Shown: in pieces, positions 27,107 to 30,942 of the stretch
Numbering within the stretch: the first letter of the stretch is position 1
Layout of the letters: each line of letters opens with the position of its first letter
Source of the DNA: Candidatus Koribacter versatilis Ellin345
GTDB lineage: Bacteria; Acidobacteriota; Terriglobia; Terriglobales; Acidobacteriaceae
NCBI RefSeq assembly: GCF_000014005.1
Contig: NC_008009.1
Coordinates: 1,240,001 to 1,304,000 of the forward strand
Direction of reading: 5' to 3'
DNA length: 64,000 nt
Program-made: the position numbers and the translations under genes
Notes under the pieces: generated by a model
What the model saw: only the letters and a program-made list of their open reading frames with translations
Told to the model about the DNA's origin: nothing
The model's database searches: none

Positions 27107-27142
27107 TCGCGAGGCAAGCCACGTAGTGGCGCCAGTTGGTAG

Positions 27143-27199
27143 CCCAGCGCGTGAGCGCTGGGAAAAGCCGCACAAATCTTTAAGAGCCCCGTCAGGGGC
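27143..27199. repeat. Two short palindromic repeats (CCCAGCGC-GTGA-GCGCTGGG and GCCCC-GTCA-GGGGC)
   Basis: Two small perfect stem-loops with similar tetraloops (GTGA, GTCA) lie in the 125-bp gap after rlmB. They resemble the dispersed palindromes elsewhere in the window. No U-run follows either, so they are not convincing terminators. Confidence 0.45.
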
Positions 27200-27231: not shown

Positions 27232-28932
27232 GTGATTCGACCTAGATTGAAGTTTATCCGGAGCATTCTCGTTCTCTTTGTCCTCTCCGCAGCGGCGTTT
27301 GGCGCGGACCGCAACGCGCTTACGTTCACCCAATACAACTTGAAGACGACCGTCACGCCGACCTCGCAGGGCTTTGAGGCCGAGGGCACGGTCACGCTAC
27401 GCAACGATAGCGCCACGCCACAGAAGTGGGCGGTTTTGCAGGTCTCTTCGTCGCTGGAGTGGCGCTATGTGCGCGTGGGCAGCGAGGAAGTGCAGTTCAT
27501 CGCGCAGCCGTACACAACGGACATTGATCACACCGGCGCAGTGAGTGAGGTGACGGTCACGCTGCCGAAGCCGCTGGAGCCGAAGCAGAGCGTGACGCTG
27601 AACATCGCGTACGGCGGGACGATCGCGCTCGATGCCAAGCGCCTGACGCGCGTCGGTACGCCCGATGCCGATGCGACGCGCTCCGACTGGGACCAGGTCT
27701 CGAATGACTTCACTGCAGTGCGCGGGCTCGGATTCGTTGCGTGGTATCCGGTGGTGATGGAAGCCGCGAGCCTGAGCGACGGCAACGCGGTGTTCTCGAC
27801 GATTGGCCAGTGGCGCAGCCGCAACCGCGGTGCGGAGATGCACCTGGCGATTTGTTTGCCCGCGAAAGAAGCCGGCGGACGCATGATCGTTGCGAATGGC
27901 ACGGAATCGCAGGCGAAGCCAGACGAGGGATGCAAAGCGTACGACTATCGCTTGGGGCCGATGACCGTGCCGGCGTTCGTAGTCGGAAATTTCCAGGAGC
28001 TGAAGCGGCCGGTGCTGACGGTGTATCACGAGCAAGGGCACACCACGGCGGCTCAGGATTATGCGGCGGAGTTTGAACGCCTGCAACCGTTCGCCGCAGG
28101 ATGGTTTGGCGCACCCAAGGAGCACGCGATGTACGTCGAGCTGACCGGCCGCGCGGTGACGCCATACGAGACCGGCGCGCTGATGTTCGCGCCGCTCGGG
28201 CAGGGCGAGCGCATGGCGACAGATTTGTCGGCGGCGTACCAGCTCGGGCAGGTTTCGGTGCAGTCGTTCCGGCCCTGGATTGATTACGGGACGGCGCACT
28301 TCCTGCAGTTCCTGGTGGTGGAGCGCGAAATGGGACGCGCGAATGCACTGGCGTATTTGCAGCAGTACGCCCGTCCGCTGGCGACGGCGGACAAGGATCC
28401 GGCGAAGGACCCGGCGGCGCAGTCGCTGATCAACACCGACGACGAGCTGTTGTATCGGGGTAAGTCGCTGTTCGTGTGGTCGATGCTGCGCGATTTGGTG
28501 GGCGACGAGGCGCTTTCGGCAGCGGTGCAAAGCTACCGTCCGGAAGACGATCACGATGCGAGCTATATGCAGAAGCTGATCGAGAGCCATGCGCACAAGG
28601 ACCTGGAGTGGTTCTTCGATGACTGGGTCTATCGCGACCGCGGGCTGCCGGATTTCCACATTGTCAGTGCGTATCCCCGGCAGATTTTGGGCGGACAGTA
28701 CCTGGTCACGATCACAGTCGAGAATTTGGGGAGTGCAGCGGCGGAAGTGCCGGTGTCGGCGCAGGTGAATGGTGGAGAGAAATCCGTGCGCATTTTTGTG
28801 AAGCCGGGCGAGAAGGCGACCGCGCGCATCAACACGCAGCAGGTGCCGACGTCAGTAACGGTGAACGACGGCAGCGTTCCGGAGCGCGACATGACCAACA
28901 ACAAGATGGAAGTGAAGCCGCCCGCGCAGTAA
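27232..28932 (+). CDS. Exported M1-peptidase-like protein that has lost the zinc site
   Basis: A GTG start leads into a signal peptide (FIRSILVLFVLSAAAFGA). The order of parts fits gluzincin M1 peptidases: an N-terminal beta-sandwich, then GLGFVAWYPVV, then the helical catalytic region. Where HExxH is expected the sequence reads AAYQLGQVS (YQLGQ at 336-340), and the WxNEGFA motif reads WIDYGTAHF (349-357), so both histidines and both glutamates are gone. Helical residues 360-470 remain intact, and a CARDB-like beta domain with VTVENLGSAAAEVPV forms the C-terminus. It is probably a binding or scaffold protein derived from an aminopeptidase; this assignment rests on motif order only. Confidence 0.7.
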   Translation: MIRPRLKFIRSILVLFVLSAAAFGADRNALTFTQYNLKTTVTPTSQGFEAEGTVTLRNDSATPQKWAVLQVSSSLEWRYVRVGSEEVQFIAQPYTTDIDHTGAVSEVTVTLPKPLEPKQSVTLNIAYGGTIALDAKRLTRVGTPDADATRSDWDQVSNDFTAVRGLGFVAWYPVVMEAASLSDGNAVFSTIGQWRSRNRGAEMHLAICLPAKEAGGRMIVANGTESQAKPDEGCKAYDYRLGPMTVPAFVVGNFQELKRPVLTVYHEQGHTTAAQDYAAEFERLQPFAAGWFGAPKEHAMYVELTGRAVTPYETGALMFAPLGQGERMATDLSAAYQLGQVSVQSFRPWIDYGTAHFLQFLVVEREMGRANALAYLQQYARPLATADKDPAKDPAAQSLINTDDELLYRGKSLFVWSMLRDLVGDEALSAAVQSYRPEDDHDASYMQKLIESHAHKDLEWFFDDWVYRDRGLPDFHIVSAYPRQILGGQYLVTITVENLGSAAAEVPVSAQVNGGEKSVRIFVKPGEKATARINTQQVPTSVTVNDGSVPERDMTNNKMEVKPPAQ

Positions 28933-29146
28933 GTTGCACTTTTGTGGGAGATATCGCGACACGATAGAAATGTTGTCAATAGGCAAAAATCGCCGATTTC
29001 TCCGCAAGCTGATGAATCGCGGGGAAATATAAATTCCGGAAAAGTGCAATTTTCCGGTGCTCAACTTGATATTCTAGAAATAGGGGGAACGAAAAGAGTT
29101 CCGCCGAGAGATTCGAGGGCGACATCGAGAGATGAGCGCCCTTTTT
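28933..29146 (+). repeat. Tandem element, copy 1
   Basis: This 214-bp unit begins GTTGCACTTTTGTGGGAG and is repeated immediately downstream. It contains the 10-bp inverted repeat TTGCACTTTT (28934-28943) / AAAAGTGCAA (29040-29049), a 20-codon open frame (28970-29032), a TATTCT -10-like hexamer (29070-29075), and two hairpins, the second followed by a U-run. The first ~125 bp are nearly identical to copy 2. Confidence 0.85.
29082..29146 (+). ncRNA. Candidate small RNA, copy 1
   Basis: The predicted transcript would start about 7 nt after TATTCT. It has hairpin 1 GGAAC (29086-29090) / GTTCC (29098-29102) and hairpin 2 with outer stem AGGGCG (29116-29121) / CGCCCT (29137-29142) and inner stem CATC / GATG closed by a GAGA loop. 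Five T residues follow, as in an intrinsic terminator. No known family is recognised and transcription is inferred. Confidence 0.45.
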
Positions 29147-29363
29147 GTTGCACTTTTGTGGGAGAAATCGCGACACGACAAAAATGTTGTCAATAGGCAG
29201 AAATTACCGATTTCGCCGCAAGCTGATGAATCGCGGGGAAATATAAATTCCGAAAAAGTGTCCGGTTTACCCCCTTCAACTTGGTATTCTGGATATAGAT
29301 GGGAACGAGAGAAGTTCCCGCTGAAAGTTTTGAGGGCGCCGTCGAGAGACGGGTGCCCTTTTC
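29147..29363 (+). repeat. Tandem element, copy 2
   Basis: It starts right after the U-run of copy 1 with the same GTTGCACTTTTGTGGGAG. The 20-codon frame (29184-29246) is retained without indels. The right inverted-repeat arm has decayed to AAAAGTG (29254-29260). TATTCT recurs at 29285-29290, and both hairpins are kept although their sequences have drifted. Confidence 0.85.
29297..29363 (+). ncRNA. Candidate small RNA, copy 2
   Basis: Hairpin 1 is GGGAAC (29301-29306) / GTTCCC (29314-29319), one pair longer than in copy 1. Hairpin 2 has outer AGGGC (29333-29337) / GCCCT (29355-29359) and inner CCGTC / GACGG around the same GAGA loop (29344-29347), then four T residues. The inner stem differs from copy 1 by compensatory changes. 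The start point is estimated from the TATTCT box. Confidence 0.45.
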
Positions 29364-30766: not shown

Positions 30767-30942
30767 GAGTCGCTTCACCACAGAGGCACAGAGGCGCAGA
30801 GTTTTGGGGGAGATGTGACCCGAATTTCTCTGCTTCTCTGTGCCTCTTTCGTGAGCCTGAGCTTTCTTGGCGCGAGTGCTGAGTAGGGGGCGATAGGGGT
30901 CCTTCGACTCCGTCGCTTCGCGACTCCGCTCAGGATGACAGG
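30767..30942. repeat. Two dispersed repeats downstream of alkB
   Basis: The first part has TTCACCACAGAGGCACAGAG and, about 50 bp on, the inverted form CTCTGTGCCTCTTTCGTGAG. The second part (about 30888-30942) has ATAGGGGTCCTTCGACT, a small hairpin and CTCCGCTCAGGATGACAG, also seen near 35307 and 39058. They fill most of the 324 bp before msrP. Confidence 0.6.

Follow-up and report, generated by a model that had tools for sequence, protein, structure and literature searches.

Dispersed promoter-like modules with terminator hairpins in one acidobacterial family, and their probable origin beside a sigma-factor-like gene

Results

The tandem elements and their surroundings

The window analyzed here is a stretch of 64,000 nucleotides from the genome of Candidatus Koribacter versatilis Ellin345 (contig NC_008009.1, positions 1,240,001 to 1,304,000), and coordinates refer to this window unless stated otherwise. 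Two tandem elements on the forward strand, copy 1 at 28933–29146 and copy 2 at 29147–29363, are located between a gene for a peptidase-like protein (27232–28932) and an oxygenase-alkB gene pair. The 2 copies are spaced by 214 bp and abut each other; as originally predicted, copy 1 ends in a U-run (TTTTT, 29142–29146) and copy 2 starts at the very next base. Both units were delimited by repeat alignment and were also matched by our R1 model, at genome positions 1268968–1269095 for copy 1 and 1269181–1269307 for copy 2, the latter being the best R1 match in the genome (E 7e-29). The upstream gene, which had been labeled a dead peptidase, showed solely sub-threshold matches to M1 peptidases (E 0.03–0.05), in agreement with that label.

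The open reading frames across the pair are purely mechanical, and a coding role was rejected, as had been anticipated. A search of Rfam 15, including Acido-1 and Acido-Lenti-1, gave no match at the gathering score across the pair and only chance eukaryotic matches (E 2–6), which upholds the original view that no known RNA family is present. A scan of the window for sigma-70 promoters of the TTGACA-TATAAT type found none, which fits the non-standard −30 box described below. It was also noted that an Acido-Lenti-1 RNA (RF01687, Rfam 53 bits) is located on the reverse strand at 27117–27162, between an rRNA-methyltransferase-like gene and the peptidase-like gene, and that a 27-nt inverted repeat, TCACCACAGAGGCACAGAGGCGCAGAG, is located at 30775–30854, immediately past the end of alkB, with a comparable string upstream of elements in genome G016 (genomes and loci are referred to by our own G and L identifiers).

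The first 114 nt of the 2 copies are 93% identical, a repeat far above chance, with 8 mismatches in these 114 nt versus 26 in the remaining 100 nt (Fisher p = 1.6e-4) and a sharp edge at nt 114. Because the near-identical part includes nt 1–40, which are not conserved at other loci, the identity of the 5′ half is better explained by gene conversion or a recent duplication than by selection. Synteny of the site was rejected, since homologs of the downstream oxygenase gene were identified in only 3 of 37 relatives (G012, G015, and G037), none of which contained an R2-detected element there.

A conserved promoter-like module

To describe the anatomy of the elements, we collected 120 copies. Their conserved core begins with the sequence TTGTCAA and stops about 20 nt beyond TATTCT, about 115 bp in total, with both flanks at background. 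The edges were identical in every genome tested, with the information content going up at TTGTCAA and down about 20 nt after the box, and with random sequence on either side. The order inside the module is TTGTCAA, an A/T-rich UP-like tract (about −57 to −38), a box near −30, and an extended −10 element, TGnTATTCT, and the distance from TTGTCAA to the TATTCT box is fixed at about 96–99 bp. The box centered near −30 has the form GTGTCCGGTTTACCCC in Koribacter and TGGC..TTT.CCCC elsewhere.

In the window, the left module edge TTGTCAA is located at 28973–28979 in copy 1 (an invariant block in alignments A3 and A4) and at 29187–29193 in copy 2 (likewise invariant), 97 and 98 bp before TATTCT, respectively, all features being on the forward strand. 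The conserved block that we call UP-element-like, given its position and A/T content, is found at 29025–29044 in copy 1 (AAATATAAATTCCGGAAAAG, about −57 to −38) and at 29239–29258 in copy 2. The alignment placed the −30 box at 29044–29060 in copy 1, in the variant form GTGCAATTTTCCGGTGC, and at 29258–29274 in copy 2, in the common form GTGTCCGGTTTACCCCC. The variant form was observed in 2 Koribacter copies, L001 (window 28933–29146) and L004, in place of GTGTCCGGTTTACCCCC. The extended −10 elements, TGATATTCT at 29067–29075 and TGGTATTCT at 29282–29290, correspond to the TGnTATTCT-like box that is conserved in the family alignment; the TATTCT boxes themselves are at 29070–29075 and 29285–29290, where they had been predicted, and transcription would start near 29082 and 29297.

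No conserved RNA structure was identified by RNAalifold in the upstream 110-nt part of the module, which indicates that the module acts as DNA. Judged from the alignments, the conserved entity is promoter-like DNA rather than an RNA or a hairpin pair, the hairpins being variable from copy to copy.

Distribution of the module

BLAST searches identified 4 further copies in the genome containing the window (G000; 5,650,368 bp), for which models based on sequence only gave a total of 12 to 14 copies, and the metagenome-assembled genome palsa_359 of the same genus (G001) contained 31. With a broader model we obtained 12 copies in G006, 15 to 16 in G007, 17 in G002, 32 in G019, 35 to 36 in G022, and 66 in G016; the copy number per genome ranged from 1 to 66 across many related genera. 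A strict DNA pattern searched against 84,980 species matched palsa_359 only, at 17 places, although the records of the window genome itself were possibly left out of this search. Within the phylum, matches were found in 20 of 297 genomes, all within one acidobacterial family, while about 266 genomes from the rest of the Acidobacteriota gave none. Related copies of the module are dispersed family-wide, but the hairpin pair is not conserved and the site in the window is not syntenic.

All but one of the 120 copies (119) were intergenic, beside varied genes. The mean pairwise identity of the copies was 76% in G016 and G022 and 57% in G000, where it reached 84% at the positions around the −10 box. 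Many of the G016 copies (contig starts, L065–L069) face a contig end at a distance of 120–480 bp, as if the assembly were broken by a repeat.

About 30 species in the genus to which G150 belongs share an orthologous copy at one site. At this site, about 9 species contained a tandem pair with a spacing of about 205–213 bp, and one contained 3 copies; tandem copies were also found in G318. The comparison thus indicates that the tandem arrangement is a recurring state of the element. In L005, a second, near-identical terminator (about 1405–1460) precedes the element by about 230 bp and is possibly a remnant of another tandem copy.

A sigma-70-region-4-like gene next to the putative ancestral copy

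The gene located directly upstream of the orthologous copy in the G150 genus codes for a protein similar to region 4 of sigma-70 (PF04545, 2e-5). One such gene per genome was found in 31 of the 61 relatives searched, all of them in family f1, and in none of 24 genomes outside this family. In profile comparisons, 20 of 24 members of the protein family matched Sigma70_r4_2, whereas no match was obtained for the N-terminal half; similarly, sigma factors in the PDB matched only residues 59–115 of 123. A structure model predicted from the single sequence, with no alignment, was of too low quality for use (pLDDT 48). There was no match to this protein among phages and no match to the window pair in phage and plasmid collections, and a phage or plasmid origin was therefore rejected.

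In 21 of the 24 genera inspected, the sigma-like gene is closely followed by an extended −10 box. At 19 of these loci TTGTCAA precedes the box by 96–99 bp and frequently falls within the final codons of the gene, which there read CQE, and the downstream module was seen even in genera with no model match at all. The corresponding copy in Koribacter is located at genome positions 5182454–5182582, about 275 bp past the matched part of the gene. We infer from this association in 21 of 24 genera that the sigma-like protein is the best candidate regulator of the elements. The copy directly downstream of the gene appears to be the ancestral one, and the family probably began beside this gene.

The sigma-like gene was missing from G016 and G002, which contain 66 and 17 copies, even when searched for with a profile, and it is therefore not needed for persistence or copying of the elements in these genomes. 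The same genomes are 2 of the 3 in which terminators are mostly missing (see below). The copies in G016 and G002 may have spread after losing control, or the sigma-like protein may not be the regulator.

Terminator hairpins and predicted short RNAs

Both predicted transcripts in the window fold into 2 hairpins, in accordance with the original prediction, and none of 200 shuffled sequences was equally stable (z-scores −4.0 and −4.3). In the first predicted RNA, of about 65 nt, the fold contains a first hairpin at 29083–29105 and a terminator hairpin with its U-run at 29115–29146 (TTTTT at 29142–29146). In the second, the hairpins are located at 29296–29323 and 29332–29363 on the same strand, and the terminator stem shows a compensatory change from ATC/GAT to GTC/GAC relative to copy 1. 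Each copy does look like a complete small transcription unit, as originally noted.

A hairpin followed by a U-run was detected after the box in 31 of 43 copies in 4 genomes (7 of 11 in G000, 9 of 11 in G006, 8 of 12 in G007, and 7 of 9 in G022), compared with 5 of 128 control windows of the same loci (p = 3e-19). These are undercounts for bulged stems, since the strict scan missed both copies in the window despite their clear terminator folds. In G001, G016, and G002, a terminator was detected in 9 of 68 copies, most having none. For the first 4 genomes, the distance from the putative start to the end of the predicted RNA is 36–66 nt. As in multi-copy small RNA families, the copies combine a promoter with an intrinsic terminator and a short RNA with no open reading frame, all as predicted features; a conserved RNA sequence or seed was not found, identity being at background after about +40, and each copy has its own hairpin-terminator that differs from the others.

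In the orthologous copies of about 30 species in the G150 genus, 97.3% of the cells in the hairpin alignment were paired, versus 37% to 66% in slid controls. The covariation score was 0.051, a value reached by none of 500 shuffles (shuffled mean 0.027), and compensatory changes were present, with a double-sided change in just 2 stem pairs. Because most stem pairs never vary, we regard the apparent retention of this hairpin as support, not proof.

Discussion

Each 214-bp unit is, in the explanation we favor with slightly better than even confidence, a promoter-terminator cassette, in which a strong hairpin and U-run follow within about 10–45 nt of the putative start, after the module with its rigid layout over about 115 bp. 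RNA polymerase would start at the TATTCT-like box and stop at the hairpin, and the products would be abundant RNAs of about 36–66 nt with a purine-rich 5′ end. With less certainty, the region-4-like protein, or an equivalent, would bind the −30 box in place of the normal sigma region 4, and all cassette copies would thereby form one regulon. The copies would have spread outward from the ancestral site by the sigma-like gene, and the pair in the window would be a local duplication in which the 5′ half was homogenized. That the hairpin varies while the promoter stays constant suggests that producing a short terminated RNA is more important than which sequence it has. One point against the cassette explanation is the lack of RNA sequence conservation from copy to copy, an uncommon property in families of base-pairing small RNAs. 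A stronger version, which we consider tentative and rather doubtful, posits a dedicated factor of the region-4-like type, with a single gene per genome next to the founding cassette. This factor would guide RNA polymerase to dozens of dispersed cassettes that produce many sequence-diverse short terminated RNAs; the system would have used the cassette of the factor as a part that can be copied and behind which nuclease or other genes can be placed. The original interpretation had recognized the look of a short transcription unit outside known RNA families, but had missed the family membership, the conservation of promoter DNA, and the link to a sigma-region-4-like gene.

The genes that follow the cassettes bear on a different explanation, which we hold to be unlikely, namely that the promoter serves the downstream gene and that the hairpin ends most transcripts until a signal permits read-through, the free-standing copies being relics. 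Consistent with such an attenuated leader, a small lysine-rich gene, gene X, closely follows the terminator at most sigma-like loci, and copy 2 in the window ends 57 nt ahead of the ATG of the oxygenase-alkB pair. Furthermore, a total of 15 cassettes in 2 genomes are followed within about 510 bp by a PDDEXK_5 gene on the same strand (all 6 PDDEXK_5 genes of G006 and 9 of the 21 in G007), where about 0.03 would be expected. Yet among the 120 copies, the gene that comes next has the same orientation in 63 cases and the opposite one in 46, so most copies lead nothing, and a role as general leader of the next gene was rejected. PDDEXK_5 genes are absent from G000 and G001, and the G000 copies nevertheless retain both promoter and terminator.

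The linkage to PDDEXK_5 genes also fits a mobile or homing relic, in which the module would mark either the conserved end of a mobile unit or the site that it targets. A nuclease such as PDDEXK_5 or another enzyme would have spread the unit, and the terminators would be incidental. This reading, to which we give less credence again, agrees with the presence of dozens of dispersed copies, amplified to a mean identity of 76% in G016 and G022, and with their persistence in G016 and G002 without the sigma-like gene. It also agrees with a second repeat module that follows cassettes in G001, G002, G022, and G150-type genomes. This second module is conserved and non-coding, is located 50–300 bp downstream of many cassettes, and consists of 2 or 3 copies of TAACTCCTTTGTTTTCAATATTTTG followed by AACAATAGA and GGGGGAGGGGG(TACC); it was observed at L007, L010, L014, L015, L017, L022, L116, and L125–L128 (G001), L155–L157 (G022), L161–L165 (G002), and L205–L208. 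However, neither terminal inverted repeats nor target duplications were noticed and there were no copies in phages or plasmids, the G000 copies are strongly diverged with only the −10 surroundings kept, and an element is found beside the sigma-like gene in most genera. The attenuated-leader and mobile-relic readings may each apply to subsets of the copies. Finally, it is highly improbable that these are strong housekeeping promoters of an ordinary type, each of independent origin and alike only in having good core elements. The box and the UP-like tract do resemble general strong promoter parts, but the architecture is rigid over about 115 bp, with TTGTCAA located 97 bp upstream, and is confined to one family.

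Neither Rfam, nor the phage and plasmid collections, nor a limited literature search yielded a description of these elements. The cassettes thus seem to be previously unnamed, although their broad kind is known from dispersed families of short RNAs or promoter repeats; the link to a regulator is inferred. Several multi-copy families of small RNAs are controlled by a single regulator, including the csRNAs of streptococci, Qrr in Vibrio, LhrC in Listeria, and the NsiR1 tandem array in Anabaena. Like these, the cassettes would be short intergenic RNA genes that end in terminators, some in tandem, with a common regulated promoter, but they differ in that the RNA itself is not conserved, in a copy number that can reach dozens, and in having about 115 bp of conserved DNA upstream. 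Another comparison is offered by putative mobile promoters, which are repeated intergenic promoter-bearing sequences beside unrelated genes, described in the literature on promoter propagation. The cassettes are similarly repeated beside non-homologous genes and nearly always intergenic, but each copy also comes with or encounters a terminator, and an apparent ancestral site by the sigma-like gene is shared across the family; nor do they show the high identity of recent copying, the G000 copies being old (57%) and those in G016 and G022 reaching 76%.

The middle promoters of phage T4 depend on AsiA and MotA, phage factors that replace sigma region 4 (PMC6755090). They resemble the module in having a good, often extended −10 element and a special box near −30 that replaces the −35 element (PMC6755090), and they differ in that the candidate factor here would be a region-4-like protein whose gene lies next to the putative ancestral copy and in that the module has an extra site about 109 bp upstream. 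The cassettes also share with REP/REPIN and MITE sequences that they are short dispersed intergenic repeats, but the module is asymmetric and promoter-like, and no link to a transposase was noticed. Its edges, at TTGTCAA and about +20, are asymmetric, and a repeat search around the window pair found no full terminal inverted repeat; the terminal inverted repeats reported for Koribacter are linked to transposases (PMC3733652).

Transcription of the cassettes would mean that common Acidobacteriota of soils make dozens of very short RNAs from a single class of promoters, undescribed in RNA libraries. The lineage-restricted sigma-like gene would provide a concrete candidate regulator that can be deleted in cultivable relatives. 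If the explanation is true, the family would represent a clear case of a promoter-plus-terminator unit that has been copied around a genome, with a bearing on the origin of new small RNA genes and regulated leaders.
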